A stretch of DNA of 30,766 nt. It comes from a virus. A program made the translations under genes and the position numbers. The DNA lies in the IMG/VR virus record IMGVR_UViG_3300045970_000086, positions 1-30,766 of that record; one strand, 5' to 3'. The notes under the pieces were generated by a model. That model did not search any database. It saw only the letters and a list, made by a program, of their open reading frames with translations, and had not been told where the DNA came from. Shown here one piece after another: positions 3,900 through 30,288 of the stretch (the first letter of the stretch is position 1; the number at the start of each line of letters is the position of its first letter).

Positions 3900-6330
3900 T
3901 CACACGCAGCTCCTCGACGCCGCGATCCGCTGGCACACTGCTGGCGTCGTCGCCGTCCCCGTCCGCAGCGACGGATCCAAAGCCCCCGGCCTGCGCGAAT
4001 GGAAGACCTACCAAGCCACACCGCCCAGCATCGACCAGCTCCTCGCCTGGTTCGGCGGCTGCGCCACCGACGGAGTAGGAGTCCTCACCGGCACCGTCAG
4101 CGGAAACCTCGAGATGCTCGAGTTCGAGGGCCGCGCCGTCGACGCCGGGCTCCTCGCCCAGCTCGACACATACGCCGACGACAACGGCATGGCGCCGCTC
4201 ATCGAGCAGCTCCTCGCCGGGTACTGCGAACGCACCCCCTCAGGCGGCATCCACCTCCTCTACCGCGTCACCGGCGGCACCGTTGAACGGAACACCAAAC
4301 TCGCACGCACCGCCGACCGCATCGTCCTCGCCGAGACACGCGGGGAGGGAGGCTTCGTCGTCACCGCCCCCTCCTTCGGCCGCTCCCACCCCACCGGGCA
4401 GCCCTGGGCCATGATCTCCGGCAGCATCGAGCAGATCCCCGCCATCACCGCCGACCAGCGCGACCAGCTGTGGGCCCTGGTGTCACTCCTCGACGAATCA
4501 CCCGTCACCACGCCCATGGTCGAGCCGATGCCCGGGGTGTTCGGATCCACCCCCGGCACCCGACCCGGCGACGACTACGCGAACAAGACCAGCTGGGACG
4601 ACATCCTGACCCCCCTCGGCTGGACCCGGAAGTTCCGCATGGGCAACGGGTACGCCTGGCAGCGCCCCGACAAGACCGGCCCCGGAATCTCCGCCACCAC
4701 CGGGCAGGCCGCCGACGGCGTCGACCGCCTCTACGTGTTCTCCTCGAGCACCGAGTTCGAGCCCGAGCGCCCATACAACAAGTTCAGCGCCTACGCCCTC
4801 CTCGAGCATCACGGGGACTACGCGGCCGCCGCCACCCAGCTCGCGAAAGACGGCTACGGCACCCAGCCCACCCAGCCGATCACCGCACCGATCGCGCCAC
4901 GGCAAGGACCAGCAACGACGACGGCCCCAACGCAGCCCCGGCATCTCACCGTCGTCGACGGCACCAGCGCCCTCGCCCCCGACATCGACCCACTCCCCGT
5001 CACTCACACCCTTGCCCAGTCCGAGGACGGCCACTCCCAGGCCCTCATCGCCGAGCACGGCGCCGTCATCCGCTACTGCCCCGAACGCGGACGCTGGCTG
5101 TGCTGGAACGGGCGCGTCTGGCGATGGCAGGCACCCGGAGGCGGGCACGTCAAGGAGCTCGCCAAGGACATCGCCCGCGCCTACCCCAACAACAGCGACT
5201 GGAAGACCCACCGCAAGAGGTCCCTCTCCCACGGCGGCCTCAGCGCCTGCCTGGCCATCACCGAGACCGACCCTCGCATCGCCGTCAGCATCGACGACCT
5301 CGACGCCCACCCCTGGGAGCTCAACACCCCCGGCGGCATCATCGACCTGCGCACCGGCGAGCTCATGCCATCCGACCCCACCCGGCTGCACACCAAGTCC
5401 ACACTCGTCGCCCCCGACATGACCGCCGACCAGGGCGCATGGCTCGCGTTCCTCGACGACACCTTCAACGCCGATCGCGAGATGACGTCCTGGCTGCGCC
5501 GCCTGTTCGGCTACGCCTGCGTCGGCGAAGTGCGGGAGGCGATCCTGCCGCTGTTCTTCGGCCTCGGCGCTAACGGCAAGACCACCATCCTCGAGACCGT
5601 CTCGGGCGTCCTGGGCGACTACGCCAGCCAGGCTCCGCAGGGATTCCTCGTCCAGGGCCCACCCCAGCACCCTGCCGAGATAGCCGAGCTCGCCGGCGCA
5701 CGCCTGGTCATCGCATCCGAGACCAACGAGGACCAGAAGTTCGACGAGGCCAAGGTCAAGCAGCTCACCGGCGGCGACCGGCTGCGTGCCCGCTTCATGC
5801 GGCAGGACTGGTTCGGGTTCGCCCCCAGCCACACCCTCATCCTCATGACGAACCACCGCCCGGAAGTCCGATCCGGCGGCCACGGGTTCTGGAGACGCGT
5901 CCGCGAGGTCCCGTTCAACCACGAGGTCCCTTCCGAGAAGAAGATCGAGAAGTACCAGGACGTCCTCATCCGCGAGCACGGGCCGGCCATCATGGCGTGG
6001 CTGGCACGCGGCGCCGCCGAGTACGCGGCAAGCGGCCTGCGCGACCCCGAGGGCGTCCGCGTCGCCACCAGCGAATACCAGGCGTCGACTGACACCGTCG
6101 CCCGGTTCGTCGAGGACATGTGCATCGTCGGAGGCGGCGACCACGTCCGCTGCAACTCCTCCAAGGTGCGCGCCGTGTACGAGCAGTGGTGCACGCAGGA
6201 GGGCGAGACGGCCATCTCGGCGAAGGCCCTGACGATGCAGCTCGCAGCCAAGTACGGCATCGGAAAGGCGCGCGACAAGCGCCAGAGATTCCTGACCAAC
6301 GTGACACTCGTGGGAGGCGACGATGAATGA
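3892..6330 (+). CDS. primase-polymerase / SF3 helicase (P4-type replication protein)
   Basis: An 812-residue replication protein. The N-terminal prim-pol (AEP) domain spans about residues 1-215: the acidic motif reads LEMLEFEG with Glu77 and Glu79 where Asp-x-Asp is more usual, and TPSGGIH (115-121) is the family's sGGxH motif. A Pro/Thr-rich linker lies near 330-370. The D5-type N-terminal region follows, then an SF3 ATPase: Walker A GLGANGKT (557-564), Walker B VIASE (606-610), sensor LMTN ending Asn654, and an arginine-finger FWRR (666-669). It would prime and unwind DNA at the phage origin. The start at 3892 is preceded by AGGAGGTGG; an upstream in-frame extension is possible but lacks this. 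The stop codon region leads directly into the repeat-rich stretch. Confidence 0.93.
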   Translation: MSDHTQLLDAAIRWHTAGVVAVPVRSDGSKAPGLREWKTYQATPPSIDQLLAWFGGCATDGVGVLTGTVSGNLEMLEFEGRAVDAGLLAQLDTYADDNGMAPLIEQLLAGYCERTPSGGIHLLYRVTGGTVERNTKLARTADRIVLAETRGEGGFVVTAPSFGRSHPTGQPWAMISGSIEQIPAITADQRDQLWALVSLLDESPVTTPMVEPMPGVFGSTPGTRPGDDYANKTSWDDILTPLGWTRKFRMGNGYAWQRPDKTGPGISATTGQAADGVDRLYVFSSSTEFEPERPYNKFSAYALLEHHGDYAAAATQLAKDGYGTQPTQPITAPIAPRQGPATTTAPTQPRHLTVVDGTSALAPDIDPLPVTHTLAQSEDGHSQALIAEHGAVIRYCPERGRWLCWNGRVWRWQAPGGGHVKELAKDIARAYPNNSDWKTHRKRSLSHGGLSACLAITETDPRIAVSIDDLDAHPWELNTPGGIIDLRTGELMPSDPTRLHTKSTLVAPDMTADQGAWLAFLDDTFNADREMTSWLRRLFGYACVGEVREAILPLFFGLGANGKTTILETVSGVLGDYASQAPQGFLVQGPPQHPAEIAELAGARLVIASETNEDQKFDEAKVKQLTGGDRLRARFMRQDWFGFAPSHTLILMTNHRPEVRSGGHGFWRRVREVPFNHEVPSEKKIEKYQDVLIREHGPAIMAWLARGAAEYAASGLRDPEGVRVATSEYQASTDTVARFVEDMCIVGGGDHVRCNSSKVRAVYEQWCTQEGETAISAKALTMQLAAKYGIGKARDKRQRFLTNVTLVGGDDE

Positions 6331-26650: not shown

Positions 26651-27196
26651 ATGACTGCCATCATTAGCGGGGAACTGCTCTGGAAGTACAGCGTGTCCGC
26701 GGCCGCCGGCAACACGACCGCATCATCGGCCGCCGCTTCCCTAGGCGACCAGATCAGCACTAGCGCCTGGGCGGGCGGCGCCCTGAACGACCTGTTCGAC
26801 AACATCTCCGGCGCGGAGAACGCCGCGAGCACCGTCGACTACCGGTGCGTGTTCGTCCACAACTCGAATGCCGCGAACACGCTGGAGAACCCGACGGTGT
26901 ACCTGTCGGCGGAGACCGCCGGCGGCGCATCGATCACCATCGCGATCGACAACATCGCCGCCTCCGCTATCGGGTCGGCGTCCGCGCAGGCCGCCGCCAT
27001 CGGTACGGAGACCACCGCCCCCACGGGCGTCGGTGCCTTCTCCGCCCCGACGACGTCCGGCACCGGCCTGGCGCTGTCGAACCTGGCCACCGGCAACTGC
27101 CGCGCGGTGTGGGTGAAGCGGACCGCCGCGAACACCGCCGCCCTGACCGGCGACGGTGTCACCCTGGCCTGCACCGGAGACACGGGAAGCCTCTAG
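26651..27196 (+). CDS. probable minor tail/appendage protein (181 aa)
   Basis: A 181-residue protein, ATG 26651 with GAGAGGG upstream. Ala/Thr/Ser-rich and beta-like: LLWKYSVSAAAGNTTASSAA, VFVHNSNAANTLENPTVYLS and ITIAIDNIAASAIGSA. The VFVHN-N-LENPTVYLS segment is common to phage proteins made of Ig-like or carbohydrate-binding beta sandwiches in the appendage region after lysis genes. It probably forms part of the fibre or decorates the tail. No enzymatic motif is seen. Confidence 0.65.
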   Translation: MTAIISGELLWKYSVSAAAGNTTASSAAASLGDQISTSAWAGGALNDLFDNISGAENAASTVDYRCVFVHNSNAANTLENPTVYLSAETAGGASITIAIDNIAASAIGSASAQAAAIGTETTAPTGVGAFSAPTTSGTGLALSNLATGNCRAVWVKRTAANTAALTGDGVTLACTGDTGSL

Positions 27197-27198
27197 CC

Positions 27199-27552
27199 AT
27201 GGCGCTCGTCACCGACGGCGACCGCGTCAAGGACACCACCACGAGCACGGGCACCGGCGACATCACCCTGTCGGGCACCGCCCCCTCGGGGTTTCGCACG
27301 TTCGCCTCGGTAGCGAACACCGGAGACAACGTGTACTACTGCATCGCCGGAGGAGCAGAGTGGGAGGTCGGCTACGGCACCCTCACCGCGGCCACCACCC
27401 TGCAGCGGTCCCGCATCCTGCAATCCAGCAACGCGAACGCGGCCGTGAACTTCAGCGCCGGGACGAAGGACGTGTTCATCACCGCCCCCGCACGCCTCAT
27501 CCGCGGCGTCGGCACCACCTGGGCGCTCGCAAACGCCTACGCCATCAACTAG
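27199..27552 (+). CDS. phage tail-fibre domain protein (117 aa)
   Basis: A 117-residue protein starting at ATG 27199, two bases after the previous stop. It contains a widespread phage fibre domain: VKDTTTSTGTGDITLSGTAPS, GFRTFASVANTGDNVYYCIAGG, EWEVGYGTLTAATTLQRSRI and then LQSSNANAAVNFSAGTKDVF. This module occurs as the N-terminal connector in many long tail fibres; here it is an independent gene, probably an adaptor joining fibres to the tail. Its ribosome binding site is weak, so coupling to the previous gene is likely. Confidence 0.75.
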   Translation: MALVTDGDRVKDTTTSTGTGDITLSGTAPSGFRTFASVANTGDNVYYCIAGGAEWEVGYGTLTAATTLQRSRILQSSNANAAVNFSAGTKDVFITAPARLIRGVGTTWALANAYAIN

Positions 27553-27561
27553 GAGCCTGAC

Positions 27562-28017
27562 ATGGCAGCGAACACCGCCCCGATCTTCACCGACATCCCC
27601 CTCATCGGGCGTGCCGTGTGGCTTCCCGCGACAACCGCCAACGTCAAGTCCGACGGCGTCGGCACCATCGGCACCGACATGCTCCTGCTCCTCACGGCAG
27701 GCGCGGACGGATCATTCCTGAACCGGATCCGGCTCACCCCCGCGGCCTCGGTCGCAGCGACGGCGACCACCGCCTCCATCCATCGCCTGTTCCTGTCCAC
27801 GGTGGCGTCCGGCGCAACGACCAGCGCGAACACCACCCTCATCGCGGAGTACGCCGCCCCCGCGCAGACCGCCGACCAGACGACCGTGTCGGTGCAGCCC
27901 ATTGACGTCCCGCTCGGCTTCTACATCCCGTCCGGCGTCACGCTGCTCTGGTCCATGCACCATGCCGCGGCGGCGAGCACCGCGTGGCACGCGGTCTGCT
28001 TCGCCGGGTCGTACTAG
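27562..28017 (+). CDS. probable structural/appendage protein (151 aa)
   Basis: A 151-residue protein with TAGGAG before ATG 27562. Beta-rich and Thr/Ala-rich: AVWLPATTANVKSDGVGTI, LLLLTAGADGSFLNRIRLTP, IHRLFLSTVASGATT and TLLWSMHHAAAASTAWHAVC. The 'LTAGADGSFLNRIRL' pattern is frequent in phage minor structural proteins with a jelly-roll-like fold. It probably belongs to the same appendage as its neighbours. Function otherwise unknown. Confidence 0.65.
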   Translation: MAANTAPIFTDIPLIGRAVWLPATTANVKSDGVGTIGTDMLLLLTAGADGSFLNRIRLTPAASVAATATTASIHRLFLSTVASGATTSANTTLIAEYAAPAQTADQTTVSVQPIDVPLGFYIPSGVTLLWSMHHAAAASTAWHAVCFAGSY

Positions 28018-28944
28018 ATGTTCCGCGACTACTTCGGGGCACCGCAGGGAACGCGCGCAGACCAGCAGGTATTCCAGTGCCAGGGCGCCCAGTGGGAGCC
28101 GTGGCACAAGCCTCGCGGAGCGACGATGCTCATGCTCGTCGCCCTCGGCTCAGGAGCCGGCGGTGGCGGCGGCCAGACGGCTGCGGCGGGCGCGGTCCGT
28201 GGTGGCGGTGGTGGCGGAGGTTCGGGTGCGGTCGCCCGCCTGATCATCCCTGCGTTCTTCCTCCCCGACACGCTGTACGTCAACGTTGGCAAGGGAGGGC
28301 GCGGCGGTGCGGCGACAACCATCGGATCGGCCGGGCTGCGCACGTTCGTCTCTGTGACCCCGAACAGCACGATCAACGCTGCCAACATCGTCCTGCAGTC
28401 CGGGGCAGCAGCAGCACTCCCCGGCGCTGCCGGTGCGACCGGTGGTGCGTCAGCTGGTGGCGCCGCGGAGACGATCTCCACCCTCGCCCTGTGCCAGTTG
28501 TCCACGATGGGCATTGCCTCGTTCATCGCCGGCAAGGTGGGGGCGGCAGCAGGTGCAGCCACGGGGGCAGCGGGTGGCGCGAACACTCTCCTCGCCACAT
28601 CCATCGTCCCCACGTCGGGCGGTGCAGGCGGCGGCACGACCCCGGCTGCGAACACTGAGTTCGCAGGTGGTGCTCAGACCGGCGTCGGCGTGTTCCCGAC
28701 CCTCGCAGGTGGACTGGGTGGCGGCAACCCCGGCCGCGGCGGGATGCGCGAGAACGGCGTCGGTCTTCTCCCGTGGCTGACCTACGGCGGCGCGGGCGGC
28801 GGCACCGGCGGTGCAGCGGCCACTCTCGGCGGTGACGGCGGCAACGGCGGAGTCGGCTCCGGTGGTGGCGGCGGCGGTGGCGGTGTCACGGGCGGCCGCG
28901 GCGGCGACGGTGGTGACGGCCTCGTCCTCATCGTGAGCTGGTAA
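28018..28944 (+). CDS. glycine-rich tail fibre/receptor-binding protein 2
   Basis: A 308-residue protein, start adjoining the previous stop (TAGATG); no strong ribosome binding site. The N-terminus MFRDYFGAPQGTRADQQVFQ binds the next region VFQCQGAQWEPWHKPRGATM. From about residue 46 onward it is dominated by glycine/alanine (GAGGGGGQ, GGGGGGGSG, GGAGGGT, GGDGGNGG) ending GDGLVLIVSW, a hydrophobic end as in fibre 1. The design (Gly-rich triple-helix-bundle type) suggests a second receptor-binding tip. It equals the first fibre in length (308 residues) but the sequences are not otherwise close. Confidence 0.8.
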   Translation: MFRDYFGAPQGTRADQQVFQCQGAQWEPWHKPRGATMLMLVALGSGAGGGGGQTAAAGAVRGGGGGGGSGAVARLIIPAFFLPDTLYVNVGKGGRGGAATTIGSAGLRTFVSVTPNSTINAANIVLQSGAAAALPGAAGATGGASAGGAAETISTLALCQLSTMGIASFIAGKVGAAAGAATGAAGGANTLLATSIVPTSGGAGGGTTPAANTEFAGGAQTGVGVFPTLAGGLGGGNPGRGGMRENGVGLLPWLTYGGAGGGTGGAAATLGGDGGNGGVGSGGGGGGGGVTGGRGGDGGDGLVLIVSW

Positions 28945-28948
28945 ACCC

Positions 28949-30028
28949 ATGCTCGGCTTCGCCCCGCTCTCCTCGACCCCGATCAGCGCCCTTCCTGCTG
29001 CGACTGCGACAACGACCCCGGTCACGTCGACCCGCGCCACTACTTGGAACGTCAAAGCTGCCGTCACGTCGAGCAGGGCGACCTCCTGGGACGTCGCCGG
29101 GAACCTCACCCCCGTCACGTCCACGCGCGCCACGACGTGGGACGTCAAGGCGCCCGTCTCAGCAACCAGGGCGACCACGTGGCGGGTGCTCGCAGGAGCC
29201 ACATCGACGCGGGCCACCACGTGGAACGTGCGCGGCGCCGTCACTGCGACACGGGCCACGACATGGGACGCCAAGGCAGCGGTCACGGGCAGCCGCGCCA
29301 CCACCTGGGACGTCAAGGCGCAGGTCACCTCGAGCAGGGCCACATCGTGGGATGTCGCAGGCGGCCTCGCCTCCGTCACCTCGACCAGGACCACCAGCTG
29401 GGACGTGAAGGCGGCTGCCTCGTCCGTCCGCGCCACCAGCTGGAACACCCTCACACCGGCGACCTCCACCAGGGCAACCAGCTGGAACGTCAAAGCGACA
29501 GTCACCTCCACCAGGGCTACGACGTGGACGGTGCTGCTCCCCGTCACCTCGAGCAGAGCCACCTCGTGGAACGTCAAGGCACCCGTCACCTCAACGCGGG
29601 CGACGTCGTGGGATGTCGCCTCCTCCATGCTCTCCGTCACCGCCACCCGTGGCACCACGTGGAACGTCAAGCAGGCGATCACGTCGAGCAGGGCAACGTC
29701 GTGGGGTGTCTCCGCGATCGTCACCACCGTCCGGCCCACCAGCTGGGACGTCCTCACCGCAGTCACCCCATCCACCCGTGCCACCAGCTGGCGCACCCTG
29801 CAAGCCGTCACCTCGACTAGGGCGACGTCGTGGGATCTCGCTGGGTCGGCTGTCACTGGCATCGACATCACCGTCCTGGCATCCCTCGGTGCCCGCCGAT
29901 GGACCGGCGACCTCGAGGCCCGCGCCTACGCCGGGGGCGTCCTGACCGGGGCGACCCGCACGGGAAGCGTCAGCGAGCGGAACCGCACCGGAACACTCAC
30001 CCCTCGACGATGGGACGGATCCATATGA
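28949..30028 (+). CDS. tandem-repeat beta appendage protein (TRATTW repeats)
   Basis: A 359-residue protein. After a short start (MLGFAPLSSTPISALP), residues 25-298 are 19 consecutive units with consensus V-T-S-T-R-A-T-T/S-W-N/D-V-K-A-A/P. Distances between the Trp residues are 14, except 17 after units 2, 8 and 14 and 15 after unit 17. The last 55 residues contain RRWTGDLEAR and NRTGTLTPRRWDGSI, which look like related but diverged modules. Each unit probably makes one strand and turn of a regular beta-solenoid or fibre shaft. No known enzyme motif. It lies at the end of the late operon after the second Gly-rich fibre; a fibre role is inference. Confidence 0.75.
   Translation: MLGFAPLSSTPISALPAATATTTPVTSTRATTWNVKAAVTSSRATSWDVAGNLTPVTSTRATTWDVKAPVSATRATTWRVLAGATSTRATTWNVRGAVTATRATTWDAKAAVTGSRATTWDVKAQVTSSRATSWDVAGGLASVTSTRTTSWDVKAAASSVRATSWNTLTPATSTRATSWNVKATVTSTRATTWTVLLPVTSSRATSWNVKAPVTSTRATSWDVASSMLSVTATRGTTWNVKQAITSSRATSWGVSAIVTTVRPTSWDVLTAVTPSTRATSWRTLQAVTSTRATSWDLAGSAVTGIDITVLASLGARRWTGDLEARAYAGGVLTGATRTGSVSERNRTGTLTPRRWDGSI
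29021..29842 (+). repeat. tandem 42-bp coding repeats (19 units)
   Basis: Nineteen in-frame units, mostly 42 bp, extend from residue 25 to about residue 298 of the protein. Three units are 51 bp and one is 45 bp. The DNA copies are clearly diverged (different codons for the same residues, for example ACCTCG, ACGTCG and ACCTCC for Thr-Ser), so the array has been maintained at protein level for some time rather than arising from recent slippage. Confidence 0.85.
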
Positions 30029-30288
30029 GCTACATCCCGCGAGAGTCCGTCGAGTTCGTCCCCGTCGTCGTGACGAAGGGCGGCGTCGCCATCACCACGG
30101 GCGTGACGTTCGCGCTCGCCGTCGCCGGAGCCCGGCCCGTCACCTTCACGACCCCGACCACCCTCGGCGCTCAGATCGGCATCATGACCACCGGCAGCCT
30201 CGCCACCGGCTCGTGGACGGTGTGGGCGAAGATCGTCGACTCGCCGGAGACCCCGGTCGTCGAGGCCGGGTCCTTCACCATTACTTAG
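30025..30288 (+). CDS. small structural protein at the end of the late operon (87 aa)
   Basis: An 87-residue protein. ATG 30025 overlaps the previous stop (ATATGA), and another in-frame ATG lies at 30010 inside the preceding gene; the overlap favours 30025. Beta-rich: VEFVPVVVTKGGVAITTGVT, FALAVAGARPVTF and GSWTVWAKIVDSPETPVVEAG, resembling an Ig-like domain. It follows directly on the repeat protein gene and comes just before the terminator, so it may be an assembly partner or tip. No family assignment is possible. Confidence 0.65.
   Translation: MSYIPRESVEFVPVVVTKGGVAITTGVTFALAVAGARPVTFTTPTTLGAQIGIMTTGSLATGSWTVWAKIVDSPETPVVEAGSFTIT

Follow-up and report, generated by a model that had tools for sequence, protein, structure and literature searches.

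Phage appendages set what a phage sticks to, and most appendage genes are unannotated. Among the closest described counterparts of the locus reported here is gp15 of Vibrio phage KVP40 (Schizotequatrovirus), a 450-aa protein (L092, 3495-4847) annotated only as a tail sheath stabilizer. Residues 3-222 match T4 gp15 (PDB 4huh, 3j2m), and residues 228-439 form an array of ~14 units in which Trp recurs mostly every 14 residues, with a lag-14 identity of 0.245 vs ~0.06. This extension accounts for KVP40 gp15 being much longer than T4 gp15, and our literature search found no paper on the repeat motif or on the KVP40 gene tags. The triple beta-spiral shafts of adenovirus and reovirus resemble such arrays in their unit of ~15 residues, in having a strand and a turn per unit and in their fibrous context; a Trp signature is not typical of these shafts. 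A further likeness is to the head fibres and collars of phages such as phi29 and 7-7-1 (PMC12796354), which are accessory virion structures, much as the gene cassettes described below often lie beside the major capsid gene. According to a reference title quoted in PMC12796354, the phi29 head fibres contain a helix-turn-helix repeat, and no sequence link between the phi29 or 7-7-1 fibres and collars and our arrays was found here.

Here we describe a related array in an IMG/VR virus record of 30,766 nucleotides (IMGVR_UViG_3300045970_000086), hereafter called the window. Like the KVP40 extension, which has a partner homologue adjacent to it, the window protein is a 14-residue Trp array in the same register (VTSVNDIDWSTRSE vs VTSTRATSWDVKA). 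Unlike KVP40 gp15, it is encoded by a separate gene after the endolysin, has an R-x-T-T-W flavour and ends in an RRWxG tip; it has no match to phrog_227 (tail terminator gp15), and only ~20 residues precede the array. We define the W14 family by Trp or Tyr every 14-17 residues, V at position -8 and V or T at position +2, and we find that it is an undescribed and uncatalogued 14-residue aromatic repeat family.

Results

The window encodes a primase/helicase, terminase (8582, 8991), portal, protease, scaffold, capsid and adaptor, together with a tail terminator, major tail protein, chaperone, tape measure and tail genes. Its large terminase shares 66-70% identity with the enzymes of Tsukamurella, Mycobacterium and Gordonia phages, which makes an actinobacterial host likely. 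The W14 gene belongs to a tightly packed run of genes after an endolysin-like gene (25584), starting with a 62-aa gene and continuing with those listed in Table 1, among them a partner gene on the same strand 1.75 kb upstream of the array gene. As this cassette follows the endolysin and not the capsid gene, head attachment cannot be assumed in the window phage. Homologues of the 87-aa protein lie directly after the W14 genes of four other contigs (L003, L011, L017 and L018), although a search of viral contigs with the 87-aa protein itself as query returned no confirmed relative. The window's gene order (tape measure, tail genes, amidase, partner, W14 gene) recurs on a contig from an Arthrobacter MAG (L181, 978-14895), which is likely a phage contig binned with Arthrobacter.

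Table 1. Positions of the cassette genes and array features in the window
Feature	Position	Strand	Remarks
Partner gene, 181 aa, beta-sandwich-like	26651..27196	+	phrog_13135 (function unknown)
~117-aa protein	27199..27552	+	frame homologous to part of the L018 ORF between partner and W14 gene
151-aa protein of unknown function, inside the cassette	27562..28017	+	
Glycine-rich protein	28018..28944	+	Gly_rich_2, PF21722; tail PHROGs; gene before W14
W14-repeat protein	28949..30028	+	359 aa, pI 11.9, 21 Trp, no Cys
19-unit array, residues 24-299	29018..29845	+	consensus V-T-S-T-R-A-T-[TS]-W-[DN]-V-K-A-x
17-residue unit 2	29060..29110	+	AVTSSRATSWDVAGNLT
17-residue unit 8	29321..29371	+	QVTSSRATSWDVAGGLA
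17-residue unit 14	29582..29632	+	PVTSTRATSWDVASSML
C-terminal tip with RRWxG motifs	29846..30025	+	resembles tips of L003, L011, L017 and L018
87-aa small protein	30025..30288	+	ATG overlaps the W14 stop by 4 bp

An earlier note made from the window's letters had described an open reading frame of 19 Trp-anchored units, and its translation gives exactly the Trp-to-Trp distances claimed there (14,17,14,14,14,14,14,17,14,14,14,14,14,17,14,14,15,14). Thr, Ala, Ser, Val and Arg dominate the protein, Thr alone occurring 79 times. R at -4, T at -2 and W at 0 are invariant in 19 of 19 units, which places the repeat far beyond chance. The DNA copies of the units are on average 61% identical (range 38-81%), and at identical residues the codons agree with a frequency of 0.451, compared to 0.455 predicted from codon usage (n=1133). 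Synonymous sites are thus saturated while the protein pattern is kept, indicating that selection maintains it. The antisense ORF at 28450-29871 (minus strand, 473 aa) was rejected as a gene; mirror ORFs stand opposite the arrays of 18 other loci and are most simply a consequence of repeat codons that leave no stops on that strand, so that they look like a codon artefact.

The note had further seen in the three long units an 87-residue super-repeat. In the window array the 17-residue units are indeed numbers 2, 8 and 14, giving 87 residues per six units, yet the six-unit super-period is weaker than it appears and is not a property of the family. With three long units placed at random among 18 spacings, even spacing is expected in 8.8% of cases and the exact 6,6 arrangement in 0.7%. 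At a lag of six units, DNA similarity shows no increase (permutation p=0.15) and is the same as the mean of all pairs when long-long pairs are omitted, and the protein similarity at this lag (p=0.016) is largely due to the long units themselves. In homologues, successive 17-residue units lie 1,1,3,4,4,5,6,6,8,9 and 17 units apart, and these irregular positions, a pattern that the note itself had named as counting against its view, led us to reject the conserved super-repeat. The 17-residue unit is instead a defined recurrent type, W[DN]VA[GS]xLxxV, with a three-residue insertion in a fixed loop; among 33 such units V(+2) is present in 91%, A(+3) in 64%, G or S(+4) in 78%, L(+6) in 70% and V(+9) in 91%. 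The 15-residue units carry their extra residue, often Pro, directly before the S-T-R segment. Since the two insertion sites differ, each unit has two loop positions, which fits a coil with a long and a short side.

Array homologues were collected from IMG/VR with a DNA pattern for three R.T[TS]W units in a row, and whole-record searches found the partner on 20 of the 22 contigs with R-type arrays and on two MAG contigs. The two R-type contigs without it (L003 and L019) both end inside the array gene, and every one of the 22 homologous arrays whose context is intact lies on a contig that also encodes the partner. The same kind of pattern scan of bacterial genomes gave 55 loci, 53 of which are chance frames of other repeats and two of which are real (L049 and L082). 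The partner of the window matches phrog_13135 over its full length (E 4e-23) and shares 40-81% identity with array-adjacent proteins of phages that otherwise differ; no other neighbour of W14 arrays is as constant from one unrelated phage to the next. The partner belongs to no Pfam or NCBIfam family and has no solved homologue. In cellular genomes it is rare, being present in one of 396 Actinomycetota genomes, and that one is a MAG already in our set.

In the reverse direction, a partner profile found 132 relatives in IMG/VR, 80 of which were kept, representing 75 non-duplicate loci. A Trp chain (at least 6 Trp at 14-17 residue spacing) is encoded within 6 kb on the same strand in 47 of these 75 loci, compared to 0.9 expected by residue shuffling and none on the opposite strand; the count is 45 of 59 where at least 3 kb of downstream DNA is available. 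Inspection adds ~8 loci whose weaker arrays are shorter, contain Tyr or have His or Ala substitutions. Near the partner gene of L170, from position 6045 onward, lies a 14-residue array with His or Ala at the Trp position (ALGDTVQLVAHTRA). Six partner loci with full downstream context have no array; at the same time Aeromonas phage BUCT552 (L175, 1206-5636) has a tail protein ending in about twenty nearly identical 14-residue Tyr units of the YNLRSTVQAELLAP type, and no partner gene was found in its genome, so neither component is strictly required for the other.

Flavours of the array were compared over 744 units in 46 partner-linked proteins, a set chosen for the Trp chain. These units have the consensus V(-8) ... 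W(0) [NDS](+1) [VT](+2) [RKL](+3) A(+4), and positions -4 and -2, which are R and T in the window flavour, are L or V and L in many others. The share of R at -4 is bimodal among the proteins, with values of 0.76 and above or of 0.28 and below; the R flavour corresponds to exactly one clade of the partner tree (one change vs a shuffled mean of 16; 0 of 500). The partner ends in GSL in 20 of 21 R-flavour cases vs 0 of 25 others. This coincidence indicates that the array and partner genes travel together, and is not by itself proof of contact between their products.

The window ORF has at least six consecutive Trp at 14-17 spacing (19 units), a profile relation to other W14 proteins and the partner nearby. 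In hhalign comparisons the window type matches other W14 proteins at 99.3% (E 7e-21), and these match the KVP40 extension at 98.2% (E 3e-14); the direct comparison of the window type with the KVP40 extension is weak (52%), so that the link runs via the other W14 proteins. Because periodic sequences inflate profile scores, the shared neighbour is the stronger argument for the unity of the family. Residues ~18-200 of phrog_6079 (tail) match the window array, those of L016, L026 and L035 and the KVP40 and EniLVp02 extensions; the match to the window is weak (E 5e-4) and covers only part of the 605-residue profile. Searches of the array against Pfam, NCBIfam and PDB sequences gave no match. A tblastn search of the window protein against isolate phages gave none at 1e-5, and the weak matches at E ~1 are the KVP40-type gp15 extension.

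The number of units among homologues ranges from 6 to ~50. Some array proteins have extra lectin-like domains, namely Laminin_G_3 in L010 and L013 and CBM_4_9 in L033; in several arrays a globular domain interrupts the repeats (L013, L016, L026). The tips vary as well: RRWxG is common to the window, L003, L011, L017 and L018, and phrog_8987 ends L002 and L035. In at least 25 of 67 loci the gene directly upstream of the partner encodes a major capsid protein, and these capsid proteins represent five or more PHROG families.

Among isolates, the partner is found in ~50 records, nearly all of them Vibrio Straboviridae. The KVP40 partner is KVP40.0353, located between gp15 and gp16 and directly adjacent to the array gene; 54 phage records match it, and 52 match at least 80% of the gp15 extension. 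The gp15 extension of EniLVp02 has Tyr in place of Trp, and in Alteromonas phage PT15-A5 (Schitoviridae) Tyr recurs with a period of 14 residues in the product of the gene preceding the partner. Table S4 of PMC12028318 presents virion proteomics of phage 6E351A, whose partner is MYOV011v1_p0203 and whose gp15 is p0204.

The AlphaFold2 monomer of the array has one strand of 7-8 residues in nearly every unit, with pLDDT of 72-82 over residues 61-220 except for one block at 68. Overall the model has a mean pLDDT of 64.8 (52-65 among five models) and a pTM of 0.48, and the tip is unpredicted; the prediction moderately supports regular one-strand units. A Foldseek search of the array model against PDB found no matching fold (best E 0.7). 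The partner model is confident (pLDDT 90.5, pTM 0.89), beta-rich and sandwich-like; Foldseek against PDB and viral models gave no confident PDB fold, and one uncharacterised viral model matched at TM 0.75.

Discussion

We estimate a probability of about 0.6 that the W14 array is a virion shaft with a dedicated partner protein in an actinobacterial siphophage. The fusions to gp15 and to a tail protein, the capsid neighbours and the extra domains make a virion appendage the most likely role, and by analogy the array of the window phage would also sit on the virion. Going by the predicted strands, the array probably folds as a narrow, monomeric beta-solenoid. The regular beta-solenoid or fibrous shaft of the earlier note accordingly stands as the best reading, given a strand in nearly every unit and a variable number of units, and its super-period does not; the note overlooked the partner gene (26651-27196), which links the protein to other phages. 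Each 14-residue unit would form one coil, in which a strand R-x-T-T-W-x-V-K is followed by a pair of tight turns and then by V-T-S as a short segment; every other side chain of the strand (R/L, T/L, W, V) would stack unit upon unit, and the 17-residue units would bear a small bulge on the solenoid. Such arrays could serve as spacer and carrier, holding carbohydrate-binding domains (Laminin_G_3, CBM_4_9) or variable tips off the particle, with the window array presenting its RRWxG tip. Carbohydrate-binding domains would then be interchangeable on the shaft, whose role may be adhesive, and the 181-aa beta-sandwich partner would serve the array and most likely bind it, as a coat, cap or clamp, on the virion. 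In KVP40-like phages the partner is kept with the array covalently anchored on gp15, so anchoring cannot be all that the partner does.

The arrangement in threes seen in adenovirus fibre and reovirus sigma-1 offers another way to build such a shaft: three chains wound into a triple beta-spiral, each unit contributing an 8-residue strand, a turn and then another, short strand. The unit length near 15 with one strand and turn, the frequent Pro or Gly at loop positions of the longer units and the fibre-like context with lectin-type extra domains are all consistent with it, as is the trimeric state, in known phages, of tail-tip proteins similar to the one in BUCT552. But gp15 is a hexamer in T4, and the same arrays both extend gp15 and stand alone, so that no single oligomeric state fits them all; moreover, the monomer prediction already gives regular strands, and domains inserted within arrays (L013, L016, L026) are easier to accommodate in a monomeric solenoid. 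We consider the triple spiral rather unlikely. Less likely again is an array without a fold of its own, an extended rail of 14-residue docking sites in which each Trp would enter one partner copy, producing a string of partners on the particle. The near-constant presence of the partner, even where the array is covalently anchored, its confident beta-sandwich model and the match of array flavour to partner clade speak for such a rail, and no residue other than Trp is strictly constant among W14 proteins, in a set that was itself chosen by the Trp chain. One flavour in one clade is also expected from simple co-inheritance, however, and an order intrinsic to the array is suggested by its regular alternation, its strict spacing and the strands in the AlphaFold model; the Tyr array of BUCT552, which stands without a partner, also counts against the rail. 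Finally, the Thr/Ser/Ala-rich composition, dominated by few residues, and the wide range of unit numbers might recall a low-complexity repeat expanded by slippage with no particular role. Such drift is highly improbable: R, T and W never vary against a background of saturated synonymous sites, and in phages unrelated to one another the family keeps both its spacing and its neighbour.

The array lies almost always beside the same partner in very different bacterial viruses, and therefore looks like a transferable building kit for appendages. In a more speculative direction, array and partner could tentatively be a new, self-contained two-component appendage system, in which a Trp-ladder rail or solenoid binds many partner copies, is spliced onto varied virion proteins and is transferred whole among siphophages, T4-like myophages and Schitoviridae; we think this doubtful though possible. 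The splice target would be gp15 in T4-like phages, and elsewhere the array would have a gene of its own, with lectin domains, located after the capsid gene or the endolysin.

The association joins two PHROG families, 6079 (tail) and 13135 (unknown), into one recurring module, and provides a testable partner pair in the well-studied isolates KVP40, nt-1 and Alteromonas phage PT15-A5. W14 is also a modular repeat whose natural length varies several-fold. A 2113-aa W14 protein (L095, 7016-13354) has 42 Trp in one chain, spaced 14-17 residues apart. The gp15 extension of Vibrio phage 1.081.O (MG592456) has CRISPR spacers annotated within it at ~238002-238574, where the protein repeat was probably miscalled as a CRISPR array.
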